DNA of 31,639 nt, taken from the IMG/VR virus record IMGVR_UViG_3300021519_000040, positions 1 through 31,639 of that record. One strand, written 5' to 3'. Positions 333-20,356 of the stretch are shown here, piece by piece. A program made the position numbers and the translations under genes. Source of the DNA: a virus. Under the pieces are notes generated by a model. The model made no database searches. It saw only the letters and a program-made list of their open reading frames with translations, and had not been told where the DNA came from. Within the stretch, counting starts at the first letter, position 1; each line of letters opens with the position of its first letter.

Positions 333-806
333 ATGGCCGCATTTGACTTCAACCCTTCCGAATACGTTGACACCAAAACCTCAACCTTTGACCCCCTGCC
401 TAACGGCACCTATAGCGCCATGATTTCCAACTCCGACTACAAGGCCACCAAGGCCGGCACCGGCCACTATATCGAGCTGGTGATCGACATCATTGATGGC
501 CCGCACGCCGGTAGGAAGCTGTGGGAGCGCCTGAACGTCGATAACCCGAACAAGCAAGCCGAGGACATTGCCCGCAGCGCGCTTAACCGCCTGCTCGTGT
601 CTTGCGGCAAACCCGACGCCCGCGACACCGAAACCATCCACGACATACCGTTTAAGATCGACGTTGAGGTTGACCGCAAAGACCCAACCCGCAACCGCAT
701 CGCGGCCTATTGGCCCTCGTCTAAGCAAACGGCAAGACCGGCAATCAATGCCGTAAACCAAGACGCGACGTTCAATTCCGGTCCCAAGAAAGCCTGGGAG
801 CGGTAA
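333..806 (+). CDS. DUF669 family phage protein
   Basis: The product has 157 residues. I chose the ATG at 333, four bases after the upstream stop, because it begins MAAFDFNPSEY, the usual start of DUF669 proteins; a longer frame from 168 overlaps the ATPase gene and is unlikely. DUF669 proteins are conserved in phage replication and recombination modules and are thought to act with Sak4-type ATPases, possibly on single-stranded DNA, but no activity is established here. Visible features are a central segment with GTGHYIELVIDIIDG and GRKLWERLN, consistent with a small beta-rich core, and a basic, disordered C-terminal tail ending KKAWER. The stop overlaps the next start by one base (TAATG), indicating translational coupling with the nuclease gene. 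Confidence 0.75.
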   Translation: MAAFDFNPSEYVDTKTSTFDPLPNGTYSAMISNSDYKATKAGTGHYIELVIDIIDGPHAGRKLWERLNVDNPNKQAEDIARSALNRLLVSCGKPDARDTETIHDIPFKIDVEVDRKDPTRNRIAAYWPSSKQTARPAINAVNQDATFNSGPKKAWER

Positions 807-1771
807 TGCCACAGGTGCCCGATTCGACTCACACAACTACGGCGGCGGTTTTCGATTGGTACGCTAACCAAGCCGACGATTTCCGCGACCACATGGGTGC
901 GAGCCTTATCGGGCACCATTGTGACCGCTATATCTGGCTCAACTTCCATTGGGCTGTCAGGCCGAAATTCATTGGCCGTATCAAGCGGCTATTCGGCACA
1001 GGCAAAAGGGAAGAAGGCCGGGTTTATGAGGAACTGCGCGCCATCGGCGTCGATTTACATACAGAAGATGAGGGCAAGCAGATCGAATGTCGCGACGACA
1101 GCGGCCACTTTGGTGGTTCCGTCGATGGCGTTGGCAAAGGCTTTCCAGAGGCCCCGAAGGCTTGGGCCGTGCTGGAAGTTAAGACAATGGGCGACAAGGC
1201 TTATGGCGATCTAGTTAAAAACAATGTGAAAGCCGCCAAGCCGCAACATTACGCCCAGATGCAGACCTACATGGGCCTGATGGGCTTGGATCGTGCGCTC
1301 TATTTCGCGGTGAATAAGAACACCGACGAAATTCACACAGAATGGGTGCATTTTGACACAGAAGCGTATGCCAAGATTACCGAACGCAAAGGCCGTTTGA
1401 TCGCGGCCAAGACCCCGCCAATTAAGATCAGCGATGACCCGTCTTATTGGCTTTGTAAAATGTGCGACATGTACAAGTTTTGCCACCAAGGCGAAGCGCC
1501 AGAAACCAATTGCCGGACCTGCACTTCAGCGGTGCCAATGCCGGGTGGAACATGGCGCTGCACGTACCATGACCGGGGCATTACGGGCGATGAACAACGC
1601 GCTGGTTGCGCTGCTCATACACACTTGCTCGTAGCGCCTCCAGAACGCCCCCAGACGGCCCCGCCGGCAAAAACTATGGCTAGGGTCCGATACGTTAAAC
1701 CTGCCGCCAGGGCGCCCAAGGAGCAATACCTAGGGCCAGTGCCTTTTGATGACGATATCCCTTTTAGCTAG
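806..1771 (+). CDS. Cas4/RecB-like PD-(D/E)XK exonuclease with SSB-like C-terminal tip
   Basis: A 321-residue RecB-family nuclease. The PD-(D/E)XK core is visible: FGGSVDGV (D107), VLEVKTM (E124, K126) and a QMQTY motif (Q151/Q153, Y155). Cysteines C39, C217, C220 and C226 follow the Cas4/AddB arrangement (C...CxxCxxxxxC) that holds an iron-sulfur cluster. A second set (C236, C239, C252, C268) may bind zinc. Family members resect DNA ends, which fits a neighbouring Sak4-type recombinase. After a low-complexity basic linker (about residues 275-310) the protein ends PFDDDIPFS, almost identical to the acidic tip of bacterial SSB. It is coupled to DUF669 by a TAATG overlap. Nuclease assignment is firm; the exact polarity and the meaning of the tail are inference. 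Confidence 0.85.
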   Translation: MPQVPDSTHTTTAAVFDWYANQADDFRDHMGASLIGHHCDRYIWLNFHWAVRPKFIGRIKRLFGTGKREEGRVYEELRAIGVDLHTEDEGKQIECRDDSGHFGGSVDGVGKGFPEAPKAWAVLEVKTMGDKAYGDLVKNNVKAAKPQHYAQMQTYMGLMGLDRALYFAVNKNTDEIHTEWVHFDTEAYAKITERKGRLIAAKTPPIKISDDPSYWLCKMCDMYKFCHQGEAPETNCRTCTSAVPMPGGTWRCTYHDRGITGDEQRAGCAAHTHLLVAPPERPQTAPPAKTMARVRYVKPAARAPKEQYLGPVPFDDDIPFS

Positions 1772-1837
1772 GTGGGGCTGTCCACCTTAAAAACACAACC
1801 GAAAAAAACAACCCATACGTAAAAGGACGCAAGACCA

Positions 1838-2092
1838 ATGACCAGCGCAATTAAGAAGGCCAAAAGCGTTTGGCATTATGTAAAATATGTTTTTTGGGGC
1901 ATCCGCACAAATGCCAAGTCCGAAAAACCAATTGTTCCGAAACGCGCCGAAAACCCAAGCCCCCGCTTTCCAAATTCTTCAATCGCAGACATTATCCAAA
2001 CCAACATTGAGTTTAGGTTGGCCAACGCGGATTCGACCATAACCAGCAACGCGGATTTGTTGCGTCGGCTAAAAAAACGTCAAGCCAAATGA
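1838..2092 (+). CDS. Small early protein carrying a copy of the major capsid N-terminal arm
   Basis: An 84-residue protein with an AAAAGGA ribosome site about ten bases before the ATG. Residues 1-43 are basic with an aromatic amphipathic stretch (VWHYVKYVFWGI) and match no family I know. Residues 44-81 align without gaps to residues 3-40 of this phage's own major capsid protein (18378-19379, minus): 21 of 38 positions are identical, including NSSI-DII-TNI at the start and LLRRLK-R at the end. Codons for shared residues often differ, for example Ser as TCT/TCA versus AGC/TCG, so this is not a recent copy. The gene is more A-rich than its neighbours. It sits in the early recombination module and overlaps the following nuclease gene by four bases (ATGA). 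Function is unknown; a capsid-assembly modulator, decoy, or capsid-targeted cargo is possible. Confidence 0.7.
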   Translation: MTSAIKKAKSVWHYVKYVFWGIRTNAKSEKPIVPKRAENPSPRFPNSSIADIIQTNIEFRLANADSTITSNADLLRRLKKRQAK

Positions 2093-2424
2093 CCGGCAAG
2101 ATGGCCCGTAACAAGGGCGCTCGTGGCGAGAATGAATTGGCTGCAATCCTAAGCGACGAGCTTGGAACCGTGGTCAAGCGCAAGCTGGGACAGGCGCGTA
2201 ACGGTGAGGATGACATTGAGATCGGCAAGTTCCGTATCGAGGTCAAGCGCCGTGAAACGTTGGCCGTCATGGCTTGGGTGCGGCAGATTGAAGCCTGTAC
2301 GCCCAAGACCCAGGTGCCGCTGGTTGTGTTTCGGCAGAATAACCAAGAATGGCGGGTGATTATCCGCCTCAAAGACCTAATCCCCATGATGCGCGAGGAA
2401 TTGTGCGATGTACGTGAAGATTGA
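2089..2424 (+). CDS. PD-(D/E)XK resolvase-like nuclease
   Basis: A 111-residue small nuclease of the archaeal Hjc-like / phage PD-(D/E)XK type. Residues 8-20 (NKGARGENELAAI) give the N-terminal helix with the conserved glutamate E14. GEDDIE (D41/D42) and FRIEVKRRE (E51, K53) give the acidic and E-x-K catalytic residues. Such enzymes act on branched DNA such as Holliday junctions, which suits the recombination genes upstream. The start at 2089 overlaps the previous stop (ATGA); an in-frame ATG at 2101, before ARNKGARGE, is an alternative. Length matches the small single-domain family. Junction specificity cannot be judged from sequence alone. Confidence 0.7.
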   Translation: MTGKMARNKGARGENELAAILSDELGTVVKRKLGQARNGEDDIEIGKFRIEVKRRETLAVMAWVRQIEACTPKTQVPLVVFRQNNQEWRVIIRLKDLIPMMREELCDVRED

Positions 2425-2665
2425 CACCTACAAGCCGCTGCGGGGCTTGCCGCTTTTTAGCTACAAGATTTACAGTACCTCAATGGGCCTGCTTGCTTCC
2501 GGCGAGGGTTTCCAAACGCGGGAATATCTCGACCACGCCATAGCCCTACGCAAGCGGGCTTTGGTCGGCCTTCGGCCCGAACGTGTCAGGCCGAAGTACG
2601 CCACTAAATATACCATGCGGGTTGTGGAAAACTGGAATGACCAATTTTACGGAGTTGAAACTTAA
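2408..2665 (+). CDS. Small unknown protein, weak DUF1508-like pattern
   Basis: An 85-residue protein that overlaps the resolvase-like gene by 17 bases. I do not recognise it with confidence. Residues 17-50 (around FSYKIYSTSMGLLASGEGF) resemble the single repeat of DUF1508/YegP-like proteins, in which a strand pair ending in S-x-G/E-x-Y/F precedes a helix. The rest is basic and ends in an acidic and aromatic tail (NDQFYGVET). It is the last gene of the left plus-strand operon and is followed by a terminator about 175 bases downstream. The intervening stretch holds no convincing gene. Confidence 0.5.
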   Translation: MYVKIDTYKPLRGLPLFSYKIYSTSMGLLASGEGFQTREYLDHAIALRKRALVGLRPERVRPKYATKYTMRVVENWNDQFYGVET

Positions 2666-2839
2666 TCGAGCAGGGGCTATTTTAGTCTGGCTCACGGCGA
2701 TGAAAAAGAGCAACCCGGCCCACCCAAGGGTTCTGCGGAGCGCAGAGGCAAGCGAGTATTCGCCACCACCTTCCGGCTCGTCGCGCCAACGACGTCCGGC
2801 CTTCGGGGTATTCGCCCGTAAGAACGTGAGATTGAAGGG

Positions 2840-2864
2840 ACGGGAGCCTTGCGGCTCCCGTTTT
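2840..2864 (+). terminator. Rho-independent terminator of the left early operon
   Basis: A near-perfect hairpin: ACGGGAGCC, loop TTGC, GGCTCCCGT, followed by TTTT and more T-rich sequence on the plus strand. The minus-strand side has no T run, so it mainly ends rightward transcription. It lies between the last plus-strand gene and the 3' end of the convergent late operon. Confidence 0.85.
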
Positions 2865-2876
2865 CGTTCTGCTTTG

Positions 2877-3035
2877 TTAACCCATACCGTTACGAATAAA
2901 CGCCGCCAACAGCGCCGTGACGCCCATCTGAACAGCCTGGATGGCCGTTGCGTCGCCGGTGGCGAAGGCAGCGGCAGCGCCGATGATGGTTAGCAGCGCG
3001 GTAACGTAGGTTTTCTTGCCTTTTAGGAAGCCCAT
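2877..3035 (-). CDS. Holin-like small membrane protein
   Basis: A 52-residue protein starting at the ATG at 3035, preceded by a good AAGGAG site seven bases away; a longer frame to 3119 runs into the endolysin gene and has no such site. It begins MGFLKGKKTYVTALLTIIG and has two hydrophobic segments (about residues 10-25 and 30-46) separated by the polar turn ATGDATA, with a charged C-terminus (IRNGMG). This matches small phage membrane proteins found next to endolysins and often called holins. It is the last gene of the late operon and follows the M15 peptidase directly. Holin function is inferred from topology and position. Confidence 0.7.
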   Translation of the reverse strand: MGFLKGKKTYVTALLTIIGAAAAFATGDATAIQAVQMGVTALLAAFIRNGMG

Positions 3036-3045
3036 CGTAATCTCC

Positions 3046-3423
3046 TTATGGATATTTTGCCCACGGCAATTGCCAGTGAGGCCCGTCCTTAAACGTCTTC
3101 CAGTCGCCGCCCCATTCAATCGGAACGTTAACCGTCTTGGCCGCAGCCTTTACGATCACGGCAAGTTTGTAATACAGGGGCCAGTCCCAGCGGACTTCGC
3201 CCCCGACAAATGGCGCTATATCGACGGCATGGCCGTCTAGGTGGCGTGAATTGAGCGTAGTTGATGCCCCGCTTTCAACCATCTGCTTCTGGCGCTCCAA
3301 CGTCCGCACGCCTTCTAGGACGGTGAAGTCCAGGTCGGTCGCCAGGATGGCTTGGTCCATCACCTTCTTAAGGTCCGGGTGAAGGCCGGCCATGCGACTG
3401 ATTGACCGCGCCCCGAAGATCAT
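3046..3423 (-). CDS. Endolysin, M15 (VanY/L-alanyl-D-glutamate type) peptidase
   Basis: A 125-residue single-domain zinc peptidase. The metal and catalytic pattern is complete: S59-R-H61-x3-H65-A-V-D68 (SRHLDGHAVDI) and DGPHWQL with D113 and H116. VLEGVRTLERQ is the usual strand and helix of the M15C fold. Enzymes of this family, such as the phage T5 endolysin, cut the peptide stem of peptidoglycan. No signal peptide is visible, so export would rely on the holin-like protein just downstream. Its start overlaps the preceding stop by four bases (ATGA). Function is well supported by the motifs and by the lysis neighbourhood. Confidence 0.9.
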   Translation of the reverse strand: MIFGARSISRMAGLHPDLKKVMDQAILATDLDFTVLEGVRTLERQKQMVESGASTTLNSRHLDGHAVDIAPFVGGEVRWDWPLYYKLAVIVKAAAKTVNVPIEWGGDWKTFKDGPHWQLPWAKYP

Positions 3424-3773
3424 TTCAGATTGACCAGCATGTAAAGCGTGGTGGAATAAAGCTGCATCAGGTCATCAATGAGGTTTTCCATCATTGTGTT
3501 ACCCTTGGCAATCTTGCTGCGGTTGGCGTTAATCCAAACCAGCTCATCGCGGATTTTGTTTGTAATGTTGGTTTTAGGAAAGTTAACCGGGCGAATCTCA
3601 CCGATTAAGCCGTAATAGCCCTGGTAAGCCTCGACGATAGAATCAATCTTATCAATCAAGCCATCGTAAAACTTGCCCAACGCTTTGTGTTCACTGAAAG
3701 ACTTGCTCGCCCAATGGGCCAAGTGGGTCGCATTGCGGAGTGCAAAAACATGCGAGACAAGTTCTTCAATCAT
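3420..3773 (-). CDS. DUF5856-type, ferritin/Dps-like helical protein
   Basis: A 117-residue, almost entirely helical protein. The N-terminal half (ATHLAHWASKSFSEHKALG, then FYDGLIDKIDSIVEAYQG) has the spacing of the Dps/ferritin-like fold: H17 and H20 with W21, then E27-H28, a following D and E helix. This pattern is characteristic of the phage DUF5856 family. Whether it binds metal or DNA is unknown; some canonical ferroxidase residues appear replaced. It lies between a membrane/coiled-coil gene and the endolysin and overlaps both by four bases, so it is expressed with lysis genes late in infection. A role in lysis, oxidative protection, or DNA condensation would be speculation. Confidence 0.6.
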   Translation of the reverse strand: MIEELVSHVFALRNATHLAHWASKSFSEHKALGKFYDGLIDKIDSIVEAYQGYYGLIGEIRPVNFPKTNITNKIRDELVWINANRSKIAKGNTMMENLIDDLMQLYSTTLYMLVNLK

Positions 3774-7550: not shown

Positions 7551-9334
7551 TTGAGGTGCGCCTTTTTGTACGCCTGATATGCGGCCTCCTTGGCGGGGTC
7601 GGTATATGGAGCGGGTGCCGTCGGTGTTGCGCGAGAAGATTGAATTGTAAGCGGAGTCATGCGGGATATGCGAGGGGCTAAAGTTTTCATCTGCCCGGCA
7701 TACCAACCATCAAAGGCTTCCGGGGACATAGTGATTGGCGCGGCTTCTGCTTCCATTTTAATGGATTGATCGGTTGCTCCAGTTGCCCGCATAACATTTG
7801 AAACGGTTTGCATGGCGTCAGCACGTTGGTTCATGTACTCGACAAAATCGGGATCATTTAAGGTCTTTTTCTCGAAAGCTTGCAGCTTTCCAATGTAACT
7901 TACTTTGCTAAAGTCCAATTTCTTTCCGGCATCACGCACGTTTTGTAAGACTTCAGGCAGTGCGCCTGCAATAAGCGCCTTTGACTGGAACGCCGGATTG
8001 GCGGTCATGGCGGCTATGGCGTGACTGTTAACAAAGTTTGCGCCGGGATTGTGCAGCAAAACGTCAGCTTGTATTTTTGCGTTTCTGCTATTTAAACGTG
8101 TGGGGTCAATTCGACCTTCCGCTACCGCTGTATCCAAAGCGGTTTGTTGTTGTTCATTTAATCCGGCTGAGGCCATTCTGTCCTCACGGTTTTTTTCAAT
8201 TTTAAGCTTTTGTTGGCTTACCCCAAGTTGGCCCTGAGAAGTTCTAACGTTGGCCTCCGTAGCCGCAATGCTTCTGTTTGCAATTTCTTGCGTTTGGCCG
8301 TTAAGGAGAAGCGTTACCTTTTCAGAATCATTAACTTGAACAACCGAGCCGGGCGGGAACCCAGCGGCCTTTATTTCGTCGGGAGTTGCAAACCGTTCTT
8401 TGGGTCTAAGGGCAGCTGCGGCAATCGCGTCAAGTATTCCTTTTGCGCCGGCTGGATCGGAAGCGGTGGCCGCATGAGCTGCGGCCTTTACGTCGGGCGG
8501 AACGTTAAGGCCATCAATGGCTTTGCTAATTGAGGCTAAGCCGCTCTGCCGTTCATTTTCTTTCGCGTCGGCCTTCAGCTTTTCAGTGGTCAACGTGTCG
8601 ATTTGTTTGCGTGTATCAGCAATCATCGGCACAAGCTGCGCCCTTTGTGTGGGGCCAATTTGCGGGCTAATTGCAATGGTTTGGAGTTGCGACAATTTGG
8701 CCTGAGCTTGGCTCAAGGGGTCGCTGTAAACATTTGACGGCGCAGCCGGGGGCGCTTGTTGCATAGGCGGTTGTGGCATGGGCGGCGCGCTTGCCGGAGG
8801 CATAGCTTGGGGCGGAGGCGCGTTACCCTGAAGGGCCTGGGCCAAGCCGGCATTTTGAGAAGCCGCTTGCGGACCCATTGGATTATCCGCCACGGGCGGA
8901 GCTTGAGGCATGGGGGCGGGCGGACCAGCATCAGACGGCGCTGCGCCACCCATAGCCAAGACAGAGGCCAATTGCGATCCTGCATTTTCAGGCGGAGCAT
9001 TGGGGGCGCTCATCGCATCCATAGTCCCTGGACCGGCGGGGGCCTGGGGCTTTGCGCCGGCATTAAGCGCATCCATCATATTGGATTGAGCCAACGCTTC
9101 GGCCCCCGCCTGCCCCTCAAGGGCGCGTTTTTGCATGACGTTTCCGCCATAGCTTTGGAGTATTTTAGCCAGAATCGCAGTCATGGGGATCGGGGCCTGC
9201 GTGCCCTTATACGATTGAATATCAATCGGGGCATTGGCTTGCTGTTGCAGCATCTCAGCCATCTTTTGCTGATATTGCGCTTTAGCAAGCTGATCGGCAT
9301 AAGACGGCGCGGTTGTAAGGCTTATGCTTGACAT
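7547..9334 (-). CDS. Proline/glutamine-rich internal virion protein (595 aa)
   Basis: The N-terminal 50 residues are helical (SYADQLAKAQYQQKMAEMLQ). A disordered P/A/M/Q-rich linker runs from about residue 90 to 205. After that come helical segments and a conserved-looking C-terminal domain with FQSKALIAGALPEVLQNVRD and DFVEYMNQRADAMQTVSNVM. The pattern resembles virion proteins of Bcep22-like podoviruses that are packaged inside the particle and ejected. I know no catalytic domain in it. The start codon overlaps the stop of the preceding 899-residue repeat protein by one base (TAATG), and the stop overlaps the next start (ATGA), so three large virion proteins are translated as a coupled set. 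Confidence 0.6.
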   Translation of the reverse strand: MSSISLTTAPSYADQLAKAQYQQKMAEMLQQQANAPIDIQSYKGTQAPIPMTAILAKILQSYGGNVMQKRALEGQAGAEALAQSNMMDALNAGAKPQAPAGPGTMDAMSAPNAPPENAGSQLASVLAMGGAAPSDAGPPAPMPQAPPVADNPMGPQAASQNAGLAQALQGNAPPPQAMPPASAPPMPQPPMQQAPPAAPSNVYSDPLSQAQAKLSQLQTIAISPQIGPTQRAQLVPMIADTRKQIDTLTTEKLKADAKENERQSGLASISKAIDGLNVPPDVKAAAHAATASDPAGAKGILDAIAAAALRPKERFATPDEIKAAGFPPGSVVQVNDSEKVTLLLNGQTQEIANRSIAATEANVRTSQGQLGVSQQKLKIEKNREDRMASAGLNEQQQTALDTAVAEGRIDPTRLNSRNAKIQADVLLHNPGANFVNSHAIAAMTANPAFQSKALIAGALPEVLQNVRDAGKKLDFSKVSYIGKLQAFEKKTLNDPDFVEYMNQRADAMQTVSNVMRATGATDQSIKMEAEAAPITMSPEAFDGWYAGQMKTLAPRISRMTPLTIQSSRATPTAPAPYTDPAKEAAYQAYKKAHLK

Positions 9335-12033
9335 TAGCTATACCCCGGAATTTTAATCGGACTAATCATTCCTGCCGCGCCACCCAAAAGACCACCAAGC
9401 GCGTTAACGTTAGCATTACGCGCCGCCATCTGTTGCCCGTAAACGTCCTGAGCCGCCTGGGCCTGGTTCTGCGTAGCTTGATAAACCGGCGCAGCCGCGA
9501 CGTTAGCCCCGGTGTATTGTTGGAACTGTGGGTTTTGAATCTGCGAACTGCTCATCAGCGCATTAATCGAGTTCAGGGGCTGATTGTAAAGGCCAAGCTG
9601 CTGTTGCAGGTATTGCGCCGCAGCGGTGTTGCCAAACTGCGCCGCGCCAAGGTTCTGGTTGTAGTTTTGCGCGCCGGCTTGATTGTAAAGCCCGGCGGAT
9701 GTTGCGCCTTGGCCGTAGTTCTGTCCGACAGCTTGGTTGCCAAGCTGTTGAGCGCCAAGAGCTTGGCTGTAATTCTGGCCGATGGCCGTGTTGTATAGCC
9801 CGGCAGACGTAACGCCTTGGCCGTAGTTTTGACCAACGGCTTGATTGCCGGCTTGCTGGTTGGCAAGGTTGGATTGGAACTGGGATAATTGGGCGGCATT
9901 GCCAAATTGAGCATTGTTGGACGCTTGGTTGTATTGTTGGGCTTGGGCTGCGTTTTGGGCCGCATTTGATTGCATACCTTGGCCGAAGTTTTGACCAACG
10001 GACTGGTTTCCAAGCTGTTGAGCCTGAAGCCCTTGACCAAAGTTTTGACCCACGGCTGAATTTTGGGCTGCGTTTGCCTGAAGGCCATAACCGACGTTTT
10101 GACCAATCGCTTGGTTGCCGAGTTGCTGGGCGCTAAGCCCTTGGCCGTAATTCTGACTAATGGCTTGATTGCCGAGTTGCTGGGCGGTAACACCCTGGCC
10201 GAAGTTTTGGCCCATAGCAGCATTTTGGGCAGCATTTGCTGCGGCAAGCTGGCCGAAGTTTTGGCCGATAGCTTGGTTGCCCAACTGTTGCGCTGATAGG
10301 CCCTGACCATACGCTTGTGCTTGCGCGGCATTTTGCGCTGCGTTGGCTTGCAAGCCTTGCCCGAAGTTCTGGCCCAGAGCTTGGTTGCTCAGTTGTTGAG
10401 CGGTAACGCCTTGGCCGAAGTTTTGACCAACGGCTTGATTGCCAAGTTGTTGAGCCTGAAAGCCTTGGCCGAAGTTCTGCCCTACAGCGGCATTTTGGGC
10501 TGCGTTTGCCTGGAGACCAAGGCCAACATTCTGGCCGATAGCTTGGTTGCCAAGCTGTTGAGCTTGGAAACCCTGACCGAAGTTCTGGCCGATGGCCTGA
10601 TTGCCCATTTGCTGCGCCTGGGCAGCCTGCCCGAAGCCCTGACCCAAGGCGGCATTGTACATACCGGCCTGGCCCACAGCCTGACCGTAGCCCTGCTGGT
10701 TGGCACTCATATCGAGGCCGATGCCCTGCAAGGCAGCCTGGCTCAGAAGGTCGTTCTGGCCCTGCTGCTGCTGGCGCATGGCGTTATTGTACGCCTCTGA
10801 GCCGGGCGTGATGCCCTGGTTGGCAAGCTGCTGGGCGGTAGCCGCAGACTGCTGGGCAAGCTGGGGCTGGAGGCGGTTCATGATCGCCTGCTGGCCTGTC
10901 ATACCGGCATTGACCGGCATGGCCGCAACGCCAGACATATCTGCGCCCGTCCTTAAGCCGCCGAACTGGCCCGCATTGACGCCCTGCGCTTGCCCATAGG
11001 CACCGGCATTGATACCGCCTGCTTGACCATAACCAGAAATGTCAGGCCCTTGGGCCGTGCCAAATTGACCAGCGCCAACGCCCCCGGCCTGGCCGTAAGC
11101 CCCTGCATTTACGCCACCGGCTTGGCCGTAGGGAGATGCGCTAAAGCCTTGTATTTGGCCGTAAGAATTAGGATTTAAGCCGCCTGCTTGTCCGGCTTCG
11201 TATGCTCCATACCCCGTGGCGGTGCCGTATTGACCGGCATTAACCCCACCCGCCTGTCCGTATTGACCGGCATTGATACCGCCCGCTTGCCCGTAGCCAG
11301 CAATATTTGGCCCCTGGGCCATGCCGTATTGACCGGCACCGACGCCGCCCGCCTGGCCGTATTGTCCGCCGGTCGGAGCGTTTTGCACATTGCCGTAACC
11401 ACCAAAGCTGGTCTGCAGGTTTGGACCAGCAACACCGCCTTGCGCCATGCCGTATTGCCCAGCGGCAACGCCGCCGGCTTGCCCATAGGCGGACGGATTG
11501 ATGCTTCCCGCTATGCCGTATTGACCCGGCGAGGGTCCGTAATCCAACGGGCTTTGTTGCCCAAGCGATGTTTGGATGCCGGGGCCGGTATAATTAAACG
11601 GCTTGTTTAGAACGCCGGTCGCCTGTTGAAGCCCTAGCAGGCCAAGGTTCGCGGTTCCGGCCTGTACCTTCTGTTGCGCCGTCAATGCCGCCTGGGCATC
11701 GGGCGTAAGGGTCTGCGTGACGGTGGGCTGTAGGCTACCCGGCTTGGTGAATTGGTCGATTGTTGGGGATGCGCCCTTGGGTTGAAGGTTCCCGTATTGG
11801 TCATAGGTGTCTTGAATGGAGCCGTAATTCTTCATGGCTTGGTCGTAACCAGCCTGATCGACAACGGGGGCGGTGTTGCCGTAGCTTACGGTTTGATTGC
11901 CATACGGGCTGATGATGTTGGGATTTGACAGCGTAGCCGTTTGCTGAGCGCCAGCTTGGTTAGCCGCTCCTTGGGCCGTCGCAGCCGCAGCGTAGTCAGG
12001 TGCTGCGGGCGCTTGTGGTGTACTTTTTCCCAT
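9334..12033 (-). CDS. Q/N/G-rich repeat virion protein (899 aa)
   Basis: An extreme low-complexity protein. Residues 1-172 are a Pro/Gln/Ala-rich head containing LTPDAQAALTAQQKV. Residues 173-359 are about fifteen units with an 11-residue period, consensus GQAGGVNAGQY, each ending in Tyr or Phe. Residues 360-454 are a helical spacer. Residues 455-814 are twenty consecutive units of exactly 18 residues, consensus AQQLGNQAIGQNFGQGLQ, alternating in part with ANAAQNAAVGQNFGQG-type units. The last 85 residues contain a hydrophobic GLLGGAAGMI. Charged residues are nearly absent. Position (after the GNAT gene, before two other internal virion proteins) matches the Q-rich structural proteins of Bcep22-like phages. 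It is probably a structural or ejected protein; the mechanism is unknown. An AGGGAA site precedes the ATG. Confidence 0.65.
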   Translation of the reverse strand: MGKSTPQAPAAPDYAAAATAQGAANQAGAQQTATLSNPNIISPYGNQTVSYGNTAPVVDQAGYDQAMKNYGSIQDTYDQYGNLQPKGASPTIDQFTKPGSLQPTVTQTLTPDAQAALTAQQKVQAGTANLGLLGLQQATGVLNKPFNYTGPGIQTSLGQQSPLDYGPSPGQYGIAGSINPSAYGQAGGVAAGQYGMAQGGVAGPNLQTSFGGYGNVQNAPTGGQYGQAGGVGAGQYGMAQGPNIAGYGQAGGINAGQYGQAGGVNAGQYGTATGYGAYEAGQAGGLNPNSYGQIQGFSASPYGQAGGVNAGAYGQAGGVGAGQFGTAQGPDISGYGQAGGINAGAYGQAQGVNAGQFGGLRTGADMSGVAAMPVNAGMTGQQAIMNRLQPQLAQQSAATAQQLANQGITPGSEAYNNAMRQQQQGQNDLLSQAALQGIGLDMSANQQGYGQAVGQAGMYNAALGQGFGQAAQAQQMGNQAIGQNFGQGFQAQQLGNQAIGQNVGLGLQANAAQNAAVGQNFGQGFQAQQLGNQAVGQNFGQGVTAQQLSNQALGQNFGQGLQANAAQNAAQAQAYGQGLSAQQLGNQAIGQNFGQLAAANAAQNAAMGQNFGQGVTAQQLGNQAISQNYGQGLSAQQLGNQAIGQNVGYGLQANAAQNSAVGQNFGQGLQAQQLGNQSVGQNFGQGMQSNAAQNAAQAQQYNQASNNAQFGNAAQLSQFQSNLANQQAGNQAVGQNYGQGVTSAGLYNTAIGQNYSQALGAQQLGNQAVGQNYGQGATSAGLYNQAGAQNYNQNLGAAQFGNTAAAQYLQQQLGLYNQPLNSINALMSSSQIQNPQFQQYTGANVAAAPVYQATQNQAQAAQDVYGQQMAARNANVNALGGLLGGAAGMISPIKIPGYS
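9592..10671 (-). repeat. Twenty in-frame 54-bp tandem repeats inside the 899-aa gene
   Basis: Twenty back-to-back 54-bp units, each coding 18 residues around GNQAIGQNFGQG. Units are diverged at the nucleotide level, with synonymous changes, so the array is selected as protein rather than freshly expanded. Confidence 0.9.
10957..11517 (-). repeat. 33-bp coding repeats (11-residue GQAGGVNAGQY units)
   Basis: About fifteen units of 33 bp code for GQAGG(V/I)NAGQY and variants, with two irregular units near residues 200-225. Glycine-rich spacers flank single aromatic residues. Confidence 0.85.
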
Positions 12034-12472
12034 ATCGGTTCCCTAAGAAACGGCAGTCAGTTTTCTTCAGTGTATACAAGATCATATCGCCGCCAGGGAC
12101 AGCGTCTTTAATGCGCCCCTCCTCAGTAAATCCCATTTTTTCGACCATCTTAATGCTTTTGGCATTATGACTGCCGACCGGGGCTATGGCTTTTTCGATG
12201 TCGCAAACGTTGTAAGCGTAATCGAATATCGCCCCTATGAAGGCTGGAGTTATGCGATCTTTGATGACTATGTGGACCACCATCGAACGCCTATTCCAGT
12301 TCTCATAAATAATCCCGGCTACGATCTCCTCATTCTTTATAAGCCCGATAGCTTGTGAGCGTTCTGCAAAGAATCCCGCGTCAAGCTCATTAGCTACCCA
12401 ATACCCGATTTTCGGGCCGCTTTCTATACGCCAGCCCATCCGGCCTGATAAACCACATCTGTTGATGACCAT
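11996..12472 (-). CDS. GNAT-family N-acetyltransferase
   Basis: A 158-residue GNAT fold protein. The acetyl-CoA region shows the familiar ending APVGSHNAKSIKMVEKMGF followed by TEEGRIKDAV; upstream strands are IVAGIIYENW and MVVHIVIKD. A GNAT gene at this place in the tail region is a recurrent feature of Bcep22-like podoviruses, where it may modify a virion or host protein, but the substrate is unknown. It overlaps the hub gene by up to 49 bases and the repeat-protein gene by 38 bases. The start at 12472 is uncertain; an in-frame ATG at 12439 (MGWRIESG) would reduce the first overlap to 16 bases. Confidence 0.75.
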   Translation of the reverse strand: MVINRCGLSGRMGWRIESGPKIGYWVANELDAGFFAERSQAIGLIKNEEIVAGIIYENWNRRSMVVHIVIKDRITPAFIGAIFDYAYNVCDIEKAIAPVGSHNAKSIKMVEKMGFTEEGRIKDAVPGGDMILYTLKKTDCRFLGNRYGKKYTTSARST

Positions 12473-15802: not shown

Positions 15803-17770
15803 TTAATGTCCTTTTATCTTAACGAACCATGTGAAGTTGTCGCCTAGTTCTAATTCTAGTCCATTTGCCGCGACAAACTCGTCCACAGCACGCTTAACTC
15901 CCCACTGGGGAAAATCAACATTATCATAATCGTGGCCGCAAAGTAATCCACCAGGGCGAACCTTGCTAGCCCACGCCTCAATGTCAGCGTGACAGCCGTC
16001 ATAGCTATGGTCGGCGTCTATAAAAACAAAGTCCAAACCGTCCAAAATGTCCTTAGCCGCATCCACGGACTTCATCCTATGGATAATGCCCCGGCCCTTA
16101 AATGGCGATACGGCGCGCTTGGTCATCGCCATATAGCCCTCTTGGGCGGCATTGCTTAGCGTGGCATGGTAATCGCCCGACGCTTCCAGGCTGGGCTCGT
16201 AGTCGCCCCACGAGTCCACCATATGCAGGACCATTTCCGAACGGTTCATTAGTAGCCGTTCGGATAGTTGCCCGGCAAAAACACCGATCTCAACGCCCGT
16301 AACAGGGCCGGCAGGGATGCGGGCCAGTATCTCACGCGCCCGCGTATCCACCGCGCTTTCAGGTACACCCATCCGGGCTATGTGGCATAGCAACCCGTCA
16401 CCGGCGACGGTAATGGTTCCGGTAAAGCGTTGGGCGTAGTCGATGAAATCCTGAGATTGCCCGATCATCCACGGCGCGCACTTGAACGTCCGGTCGCCAT
16501 AGATCAAATCCATGACGCGCTCGCCGTTGTTCCACTTTTGCTCGTATGCGTGATGTTCGCCGTTGTCGTAACAGCTATCAATGCCAAGGAGGTGGATAAC
16601 GCGGGTTCCGCCCAGTTCGGCTATCAGCATGGCCTTCAGGGCGACCGTGGTGCCTGCGCCTAGCAAATGTACCGGGCGCTCGACTTCGCCGCGTAGCAAG
16701 TCCTCAACGCCTTCTGACTGGCAATGAAACAGGGTTACGTCGTAGCCGTCCAACGCATCAAAGATTGCCGGGTCGCATTGCGACGATATGTAATAGCGGA
16801 TTGACTTTTGCGGCTGGGAAACAAAGGCCAGATTGTCGGCGCGGGCGTCTAGGATCACATGCACATCTGGCGTCAGGTCGTGACTGATTAGGTAATTACA
16901 GACGCCGTTTACCGCCCATATCTCTTGGCCGTAGCCCCGGCGCTTACGCAATGTGTCCAGTTCAAACTTCAGCGATGGTCCGCCGCCGACAATGCAAACC
17001 TGCCGATCATGGGTTTGCCAATCGAAATCAAACCATTTCAGGTCGCGGGCGCAAGCCGACCTAATGTTGTCGTGAATAACGCTAGTTTCGGTATTGCAGA
17101 CCGTATCCATTTCCACGCGAGTCATTCCGCCTTCTTTCCACATTCCGGGAACCCAGCCATCTAGCACTTCATGCGGGCGCGGATGACCATGAAACACAAC
17201 AACAGCCGCCTTGTCGGGGGCCGAGCCGCCTGAGACTTTGTAGCTGACAAAAGCGTCGGGCAGTACATCCTGCCATATGTCAGCCTTGCCGATATAGGCA
17301 CGTTCGATCCACGATTGATCGCCGCCCATAATACAGGGCATCCCGGCGCGTTCCCAATCGCGCCAAAGCGATTCCGTGGCCCTAGAAACGCGCCATGCCA
17401 TGACGGACGATTGCAAGCCTTCCGCACGGTAGAAATCGCGCAGGATGGCAAACTCGCCGGCATAGTTGGCTACCGCGTCTAGGCGTCCCGCCAACACGGT
17501 ATCAAGGTCCAGATAAAGGACGCGATCATCCCAATTAAATACGCCGGGCTTGAATAAGGCTAGCTTGTTCCACCAACCGTCTAGGCCGGGGTGCGGTAGG
17601 TCGCGGACTTCAACCCCGTATCCATAATCGCCGGGGGTATCTGTGAAAACAATGAACTTGCCGGCATAGCCCTCAGGCAGGTTGCGGCGGACCATATCGT
17701 TTAGATTGCGGACGTATTCGACGCCCCGGCCAAGGTAGTTACCGGCGTTAACACATATGACGTTTAGCAT
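15803..17770 (-). CDS. Three-domain fusion: glycosyltransferase, DUF115-like domain, SAM methyltransferase
   Basis: A 655-residue enzyme made of three recognisable parts. Residues 1-215 resemble a GT-A glycosyltransferase: LDGWWNKLALF, the D-x-D motif in YLDLDTV (D88/D90), GGDQSW and a C-terminal VVFHGHPRPHEV. Residues about 245-470 carry the DUF115/Maf-type signature VCIVGGGPSL (262-267 GGGPSL), IWAVNG, VHVILDAR (308-310) and HLLGIDS, known from motility-linked glycosyl- or sialyl-transferases. Residues about 485-655 are a Methyltransf_24-type SAM methyltransferase: VTGVEIGVFAG (494-500), FIDADHSYDGC (583-593) and GGLLCGHDY. It lies between capsid and tail genes and would be made late, so glycan decoration of the virion or host surface is plausible. 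The acceptor is unknown. The start directly follows a terminator hairpin. Confidence 0.8.
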   Translation of the reverse strand: MLNVICVNAGNYLGRGVEYVRNLNDMVRRNLPEGYAGKFIVFTDTPGDYGYGVEVRDLPHPGLDGWWNKLALFKPGVFNWDDRVLYLDLDTVLAGRLDAVANYAGEFAILRDFYRAEGLQSSVMAWRVSRATESLWRDWERAGMPCIMGGDQSWIERAYIGKADIWQDVLPDAFVSYKVSGGSAPDKAAVVVFHGHPRPHEVLDGWVPGMWKEGGMTRVEMDTVCNTETSVIHDNIRSACARDLKWFDFDWQTHDRQVCIVGGGPSLKFELDTLRKRRGYGQEIWAVNGVCNYLISHDLTPDVHVILDARADNLAFVSQPQKSIRYYISSQCDPAIFDALDGYDVTLFHCQSEGVEDLLRGEVERPVHLLGAGTTVALKAMLIAELGGTRVIHLLGIDSCYDNGEHHAYEQKWNNGERVMDLIYGDRTFKCAPWMIGQSQDFIDYAQRFTGTITVAGDGLLCHIARMGVPESAVDTRAREILARIPAGPVTGVEIGVFAGQLSERLLMNRSEMVLHMVDSWGDYEPSLEASGDYHATLSNAAQEGYMAMTKRAVSPFKGRGIIHRMKSVDAAKDILDGLDFVFIDADHSYDGCHADIEAWASKVRPGGLLCGHDYDNVDFPQWGVKRAVDEFVAANGLELELGDNFTWFVKIKGH

Positions 17771-18377: not shown

Positions 18378-19379
18378 TTAAGCGATCAAAACGCCTTGGA
18401 ACTGCGCGCCCGAACAGGTCAAGTTACCCGCCCAGCCGATCAGTTTCACAATGGCGTCTTGGTTAACCGATTGGCGCTCACCGCCAACAGGAACAAAGTT
18501 GCGATCCACATGGGGCCGGAACATCAAGTATTTGCTGTTCAGGAAGAACATATGGTTAGCGGTAGCGGACGCGCCGATACCACCATCAAGCACAACGTCG
18601 GAAGCCATACCAGCGCCATAATACTTCAGGGCGGCAAAGCCAGCGCCAGCCATCGACGAACCGGAGTCCGAGATGCGTTGGATGGATTGCAGCGACTGAA
18701 GATAGAGGCGGTAGTAGTTATTGTCAGCCACGATCAAATCGGGCTTATCGGTGCCACGGATCAGCTGGACGGCCAGGGCATCCATGTATTGTTGGATGTT
18801 CGAAGCAGTCGTAGCCGCGCCGCCGTTCGTCACCGCCGAATAGGCAACGGATTGCCAAAAGGTGAAAGACGCACGGTTGATGCCGCCGTAGGTGCCGGAG
18901 GTCGGTACATCAGGAACGGCAGCGCCCAGGCCGGTAAGGTTCTTACCGCTGTTGCCGGTGCCGTCGAGATATAGATCGCCGCTGATACGGTTGGCGAGTT
19001 GGGCTTCGGCAACATTCATACGACCGTCAAGCAGGTCGATGATGGCTTCCTTACCGCTGTTCTGGATCATTTCCAGGCCAGAGATAGTTACCGCCGAAGC
19101 GTATTGCGTGATGGAGAACTGAGCCGCCGAGATTGGCGAGTTCTGGGACACGTTCAGCACTTCGTAACCGGAATAGCTGTTCGTGTTGTTGGTGGTGCTG
19201 TCGTTGTACATGATTTCTTGCAAAATCACGTTACCGCCGGAGAACGTCTTAACGTTTCCCCGGTCCTTTAGGCGACGAAGCAACGCATTGTTGTTCGTCA
19301 CGTTGTCGGCCAGCTCACCACTACGGCTTTGGATATTCGTCGCAATGATGTCGCTGATCGAGCTATTGGCGAAAGCCAT
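18378..19379 (-). CDS. Major capsid protein
   Basis: A 333-residue HK97-fold type capsid subunit. It begins MAFANSSISDIIATNI, and the N-terminal arm up to LLRRLKDR (residue 40) is followed by NVKTFSGGNVILQEI, a pattern I associate with a group of podovirus major capsid proteins. Later segments fit the E-loop, spine helix and A domain: ANRISGDLYLDGTGN, PDLIVADNNYYRLYLQSLQS and MFFLNSKYLMFRPHVDRNF. It stands between scaffold and decoration genes and has a good AAAGGG site upstream. The arm (residues 3-40) reappears in an early 84-residue protein at 1838-2092. Identification as capsid is well supported by order and family pattern. Confidence 0.9.
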   Translation of the reverse strand: MAFANSSISDIIATNIQSRSGELADNVTNNNALLRRLKDRGNVKTFSGGNVILQEIMYNDSTTNNTNSYSGYEVLNVSQNSPISAAQFSITQYASAVTISGLEMIQNSGKEAIIDLLDGRMNVAEAQLANRISGDLYLDGTGNSGKNLTGLGAAVPDVPTSGTYGGINRASFTFWQSVAYSAVTNGGAATTASNIQQYMDALAVQLIRGTDKPDLIVADNNYYRLYLQSLQSIQRISDSGSSMAGAGFAALKYYGAGMASDVVLDGGIGASATANHMFFLNSKYLMFRPHVDRNFVPVGGERQSVNQDAIVKLIGWAGNLTCSGAQFQGVLIA

Positions 19380-19399: not shown

Positions 19400-20356
19400 C
19401 TAGAGGCGGTCATTAATGCCGTTGAATTGTTCAAGCAGCATTGCCCGCCTATCTTGCGCTTTGGTAGCCGTCACAGCCCCAGGTGTGGAGCTTCTAACAC
19501 TTACCGCTGCTGCCTTAGCGGCTTTCGCCGCCCGGTTGGCCGCTGACTTTCTTTCGGCTTCAGCTTCGGCTTGTCGGCCCTGCTGAGACTTTTCAAAAAG
19601 ATCATCGTTAAGGCGTATCGCTTTTTCATAAGCGTCTTCCAGCGTAGTCGCCACGCCGCTCTGTAGGAGCTGGATCATGGTCGGCCTTGCGTCCTCAAAA
19701 TACTCGGCCTTATGAGAGAAATTGTTTATCTCACTCATAAGCGTCTGATTTTGAGCTTCTTCCTGCTGTTGTTTATAACCTACAATTTCTCCGCGAACAT
19801 TGTTCAGTTCGTTCTGTAGATTGTAGATCATCGGATCAACCGGACCCCCAGCAGGAGGGTAGTATTCCGATCCGTCCAAAGTTATGCCGTACTGCTGAGC
19901 CAGTTGGATCATGTACGCTCGTTTTTGATCTGGCGCGGCGGTCCTAAGAACATGGTCCGCTTGCATCAGGGCTTGCACGGCTTGCGCCGGCGCAACACCT
20001 AGGCCGCGAATGGTGTTCTCGTAGGGCTGCATGACTTGCTGCATTTGGTCGGCAAACTGCGCCTTAACGCGCAGCGGTTCGATTCCGGTGCGGGTTTCTT
20101 CGTCCCGTTGCCAGATGTATTCCCGCAGCTTGGGGTCAACGGCCTGCCAGGGCTCGTGATATTCACGCTTCCAGCTTGACGGCGGTTTAGCCCAAATTGG
20201 TGGTTCTTCGGGTTCAACAACTTCTTGTGGCGCTTCGGTTTGCGCTGGGGCAACTTCTCTTGCCGCCTCAACCTCCTCAAACTGCTGCATAAGCAGTTCT
20301 TTGCGGTCAACTGTTTCTTCGGTAGGCACGATTTGATCTTGGGTGTCCACGATCAT
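19400..20356 (-). CDS. Scaffolding protein
   Basis: A 318-residue, highly charged, mostly helical protein without cysteine, directly upstream of the capsid gene. It has an acidic N-terminal region (about residues 1-55), a PPIWAKPPSSWKREYHEPW segment seen in podovirus scaffolds, long helices with many Gln and Glu, and a basic C-terminal tail with RAAKAAKAAAVSVR. In such scaffolds the basic C-terminus binds capsid subunits during procapsid assembly. The ATG at 20356 lies only two or three bases after AAAGGG; a GTG two codons later has better spacing and may be the true start. It overlaps the preceding gene by four bases. Confidence 0.8.
   Translation of the reverse strand: MIVDTQDQIVPTEETVDRKELLMQQFEEVEAAREVAPAQTEAPQEVVEPEEPPIWAKPPSSWKREYHEPWQAVDPKLREYIWQRDEETRTGIEPLRVKAQFADQMQQVMQPYENTIRGLGVAPAQAVQALMQADHVLRTAAPDQKRAYMIQLAQQYGITLDGSEYYPPAGGPVDPMIYNLQNELNNVRGEIVGYKQQQEEAQNQTLMSEINNFSHKAEYFEDARPTMIQLLQSGVATTLEDAYEKAIRLNDDLFEKSQQGRQAEAEAERKSAANRAAKAAKAAAVSVRSSTPGAVTATKAQDRRAMLLEQFNGINDRL

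Follow-up and report, generated by a model that had tools for sequence, protein, structure and literature searches.

Proteins that derive from a capsid protein and act on particle assembly have precedents in Ccm of SaPIbov5 (PMC8569155) and in p22 of Ty1 (PMC4599808). Ccm is a homologue of the phi12 capsid protein that is encoded apart, by the satellite; it is a full HK97-fold subunit which forms pentamers and redirects capsid shape (PMC8569155). The Ty1 restriction factor p22/p18 is a fragment of the own capsid of a yeast retrotransposon; it corresponds to the C-terminal half of Gag, is produced through internal initiation on the Gag gene itself and interferes with particle assembly (PMC4599808, PMC8458377). 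A third relevant protein, the small CpmB encoded by the satellite SaPI1, competes with the scaffold of 80alpha for the site that the scaffold has on the capsid (PMC5644958). The N-terminal arm of capsid proteins is a known point of contact during assembly. In P22 the scaffold gp8 binds the coat N-arm at D14, E15 and E18 (PMC9965877), in 80alpha the N-arm helix is contacted by the C-terminal helix of the scaffold (PMC5644958) and in SPP1 the N-terminal helix is the scaffold-binding route for all subunits of the major capsid protein (MCP) (PMC6813328). In all three phages the arm also touches adjacent subunits of the shell (PMC9965877, PMC5644958, PMC6813328).

Here we describe a small optional ORF that lies amid the DNA-recombination genes of a virus of bacteria and that encodes, in its second half, a diverged version of the N-arm of the virus's own MCP. 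The window, that is, the whole stretch of DNA analysed, comprises the 31,639 nucleotides of IMG/VR record IMGVR_UViG_3300021519_000040. As with Ccm, a capsid relative is encoded apart, its role in assembly being putative in this case; in contrast to Ccm, the arm alone is present and it is encoded by the phage itself. CpmB occupies the scaffold's side of the contact, whereas the 84-aa protein represents the capsid's side. Unlike p22/p18, it is the product of a separate, diverged gene and contains the N-arm. A literature search within a limited paper collection turned up no account of a gene of this kind. The features of the locus are as follows.

806..1771, plus strand: Cas4-domain exonuclease, bounding the slot on its upstream side (phrog_1990, E 2.9e-93)
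1771..1786, plus strand: inverted repeat GGTGGGGCTGTCCACC, after the exonuclease gene
1838..2092, plus strand: gene of the 84-aa protein (arm gene), ATG start; basic aromatic helix, linker and MCP-like N-arm
1838..1966, plus strand: N-terminal part, residues 1-43, net charge +8; relative only in the sister phage L001
1967..2089, plus strand: arm part, residues 44-84, of which 44-81 align to MCP 3-40
2089..2424, plus strand: resolvase or PDDEXK endonuclease, bounding the slot on its downstream side (phrog_244, E 5e-20; PF24608)
18378..19379, minus strand: MCP, 333 aa, phrog_9953, HK97 fold (best Z 20.2, cyanophage A-1(L) capsid)
19260..19373, minus strand: N-arm of the MCP, residues 3-40, predicted helices 5-29 and 32-39
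19400..20356, minus strand: putative scaffold, possible partner of the arm, upstream of the MCP gene

The 84-aa protein and the capsid arm

The TGA stop of the arm gene overlaps the start codon of the following gene (ATG at 2089), and a ribosome-binding site is visible before the arm gene in both the window and the sister phage L001, despite the differing leader. Because it keeps company with recombination genes and lies on the strand opposite to the structural genes, the arm gene is probably expressed early, before the late genes. AlphaFold2 predicts helices at residues 2-26 and 49-83 and a disordered linker at 27-48 in a weak model (mean pLDDT 65), and no folded body: the predicted protein consists of a basic aromatic helix, a linker and the arm. 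The HK97-fold body (A and P domains, E-loop) is absent, as the earlier note had stated, and searches of Pfam and PHROGs returned no match, including to phrog_9953. The same note's description of the N-terminal segment as basic and aromatic is borne out by the charge and the predicted helix; for the origin of these 43 residues only weak, chance-like matches were obtained.

The MCP belongs to phrog_9953 (E 3e-105) and is of the Mx8 type, with relatives in the Myxococcus phages Mx8 and Mx9, Stenotrophomonas phage BUCT555 and Bradyrhizobium phage ppBjS10J-1. No solved structure matching it by sequence was found. An AlphaFold2 model built from 45 sequences has a mean pLDDT of 81, with values of about 79-89 from residue 11 on in the arm, and both Foldseek and VIA-align 2 identify it as an HK97 fold. 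The two predicted helices of residues 3-40 precede the body and correspond to the N-arm, so that the copied part is indeed the kind of arm that, in P22, 80alpha and SPP1, contacts scaffold or neighbours. The product of 19400..20356 is a candidate scaffold from its position; it had no family match in the Pfam and PHROGs searches. Elsewhere among the tail and structural genes, all on the minus strand, the window encodes a 655-aa protein (15803-17770) with MptE-like and Methyltransf_24 domains, whose N-terminal third looks by eye like a glycosyltransferase, and a GNAT-like acetyltransferase (11996-12472; weak Pfam match), an annotated GNAT gene being present in the corresponding region of BUCT555 and ppBjS10J-1 too. 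An 899-aa protein (9334-12033, minus strand) is made of many degenerate NQAIGQNFGQGLQAQQLG-like repeats and is strongly shortened in L001, to 372 aa.

The alignment reported in the earlier note is exact: residues 44-81 of the 84-aa protein match MCP residues 3-40 without gaps, with 21 of 38 identical. The shuffled controls it called for place this match far beyond chance. The BLOSUM62 local score is 94, against a mean of 26.9 (sd 4.2) and a maximum of 51 in 5000 shuffles (Gumbel p about 8e-10), and in an all-vs-all blastp of the window's genes the arm protein and the MCP are the sole matching pair (E=1.2e-8). The arm of L001 is closer still to the MCP than that of the window. Different codons encode 14 of the 21 shared residues, in line with the earlier observation, and recent nucleotide-level copying or gene conversion is ruled out, since merely 58 of 114 bases agree between the two arms.

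Identity is unevenly spread. The ends of the arm match at 12 of 17 and 7 of 8 positions, the middle at 2 of 13. Changes thus affect 11 of 13 residues at MCP positions 20-32 and 6 of the remaining 25 (p 5e-4 by Fisher's test, p 0.008 by sliding-window permutation). The middle contains most of the arm residues that are invariant across the MCP family, and these are mostly altered; the copy therefore retains both ends and loses the core. A24, D25, V27, N31 and A32 are changed in the window copy, and N30, L34 and L37 are retained; the position of V27 is I in the window copy and V in that of L001. Loss of the core argues against faithful mimicry of the MCP arm. That the protein 'copies' the arm holds for the ungapped match as a whole and breaks down in the middle.

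Origin of the copy and its genomic slot

The free arm bears marks common only to this clade of MCPs, namely a two-residue SS insertion, TNI (not TTI) and LLRRLK, which are missing from Mx8, BUCT555 and other MCPs. The arm gene therefore arose, very probably, when part of the MCP gene of this same phage group was duplicated, and the copy postdates the divergence from the Pandoraea-type MCP, which is 72% identical. This dating goes against the earlier description of the copy as old. Since the duplication the copy has been altered at 17 of 38 positions, whereas the clade's MCP arms hardly differ from one another. Its dN of 0.37-0.50, compared with 0.05 among MCP arms, corresponds to protein change about eight times faster, with synonymous sites saturated. 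Through its clade-specific residues the 84-aa protein, like the Ccm-like and p22-like modulators, is marked as derived from a capsid protein.

The slot between the Cas4-like exonuclease and resolvase genes is hypervariable; upstream of it are genes for a Sak4-like AAA protein and a DUF669 single-strand binding protein, followed by the exonuclease. In some relatives 10-48 bases separate the exonuclease from the resolvase (L088, L091, L093, L099, L102 and others). The slot of L086, whose exonuclease is 99% identical to that of the window, holds an unrelated 118-aa ORF, those of L089 and L090 hold coiled-coil-like ORFs, and further relatives hold various other ORFs. A variant of GGTGGGGCTGTCCACC is found in L088, where the slot is empty, and the repeat is deleted in L001; as a possible control element it is present in a single copy, with no others within the window. 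In L001 (IMGVR_UViG_3300013285_000047) an arm protein that is 85% identical is encoded at the same site, in an open frame. Fifteen records carry both the MCP and the exonuclease (the window and 14 contigs common to the match lists of the two proteins), and the arm gene is in two of them, the window and L001. Confined to one site and present or absent among close relatives, the arm gene is an accessory (moron-like) gene.

Relatives of the 84-aa protein number none in GenBank phages, none in genome_contigs and one, L001, in viral_contigs. Apart from L001, no arm-only copy was found in 99 viral records, 32 whole genomes, 50 further records and 3.0 Mb of loci. Mx8-type MCPs (phrog_9953) have an arm homologous over residues 3-40, but the records that match a search with the arm show the MCP copy only. 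Short arm pieces in L064, L223 and L224 were rejected as free arms, being 5' exons of split MCP genes. In L064 (IMGVR_UViG_3300021519_000096, 1860-3679) a group I intron splits the MCP gene between codons 13 and 14 (Rfam RF00028, 68 bits), and a 216-aa ORF on the opposite strand overlaps the insert. In L223 (9140-10001) and, at the same positions, L224, about 780 bases interrupt the MCP gene near codon 27/28; this insert matches a group I intron in part (24 bits, under the gathering score) and contains a homing endonuclease ORF. These are two distinct intron sites within the arm-coding part of MCP genes.

Possible roles of a free arm

What might a free capsid arm do? We tentatively propose, as the likeliest of several readings, that the 84-aa protein is an optional, capsid-derived accessory protein with an assembly-related role, a role that is possible rather than probable. 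After partial duplication of the MCP gene, the N-arm was very probably joined behind a short basic aromatic helix, and the fused gene now lies in an exchangeable slot of the recombination-gene operon. The simplest task for a free arm would be to bind in trans the normal partner of the MCP arm, whether scaffold or an adjacent MCP subunit; capsid assembly of the phage itself or of a co-infecting relative might thereby be modulated, that is, slowed, redirected or poisoned. The more specific claim that a free N-arm of the phage's own capsid, encoded outside the structural genes, controls assembly in trans, directed at self or at a rival, as a phage counterpart of Ty1 p22, is doubtful. The functional reading of the earlier note, in which an early free arm holds back premature assembly, serves as an assembly decoy or carries its N-terminal part into procapsids, is possible. 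An assembly role is favoured by a significant match that is restricted to the arm and unique in the window, by the predicted arm helices and HK97 fold of the MCP, by the scaffold contacts of the N-arm in P22, 80alpha and SPP1, by the shared site and open frame in L001, by the turnover of genes in the slot, by the precedents of Ccm and Ty1 p22 and by the retention of both arm ends, with change clustered in the middle. Against it stand the loss of the family-invariant core, the fast protein change, selection compatible with neutrality and the lack of the gene in most relatives.

A rival reading is a decaying or nearly neutral fusion, in which a chance duplication of the arm drifts in a variable slot, its frame perhaps held solely by translational coupling to the resolvase. 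We consider this unlikely. The dN/dS of the arm gene is 0.41 (0.58 in the N half), compared with 0.072 for the exonuclease, 0.036 for the resolvase, 0.015 for the AAA gene and 0.10 for the MCP, and its differences fall 9/5/9 on the three codon positions, as opposed to 10/8/54 in the exonuclease. Only two copies are known, the family-conserved core is gone, and GC (0.456) and GC3 (0.51) are below those of neighbouring genes (0.53-0.58 and 0.60-0.75), a composition that fits a separate history or drift. On the other hand, 23 of 252 bases distinguish the window gene from that of L001, all of them substitutions, and the frame is open in both, although the adjacent leader underwent a large deletion; the arm half has a dN/dS of 0.27, and changes from the MCP arm are concentrated in the middle rather than scattered. 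In neutral simulations, equally many synonymous differences arose in 9-20% of runs (two copies, 23 differences), and retention of the arm gene is therefore plausible at most. With neutrality not rejected, one other phage carrying the gene and the slot empty or refilled in relatives, the earlier statement that the copy is kept goes too far; the arm gene is better termed clade-restricted, fast-changing and optional than old and kept.

Other readings have less in their favour. The free arm could occupy a capsid-recognising host sensor before the MCP is made, which would suit a slot that carries exchangeable small genes; this anti-defence role is improbable, and we know of no sensor that reads the capsid N-arm. 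Capsid-sensing defences as such are known: CapRel binds newly made MCP (PMC9712102) and a staphylococcal Thoeris binds the 80alpha capsid protein (PMC11312562). However, CapRel escape mutations map to MCP residues 111-124, outside the arm (PMC9712102). It is quite improbable that the arm is a packaging tag, by which the protein would lodge in the procapsid and the virion would take its basic N-terminal helix along to the next cell. The arm does contact scaffold or shell in related folds (PMC9965877, PMC5644958, PMC6813328), and AlphaFold2 predicts a basic helix and a flexible linker; yet the N-terminal segment matches no known cargo or DNA-binding domain and is less conserved than the arm half. 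Convergence on a generic helical motif, with no duplication of the MCP, would draw on the short and helical nature of both segments, and is extremely improbable given the strength of the ungapped match and the three clade marks.

For phage biology the outcome matters in either case. If the arm gene is a decaying fusion, it is a record of how fragments of structural genes enter the accessory-gene slots of phages. If, as in the assembly role that we tentatively prefer, the free arm acts on the scaffold or the capsid, HK97-type assembly would have a natural inhibitor in the form of a peptide. It would also be the first case known to us in which a tailed phage employs, as a regulator, a piece detached from its own shell protein.
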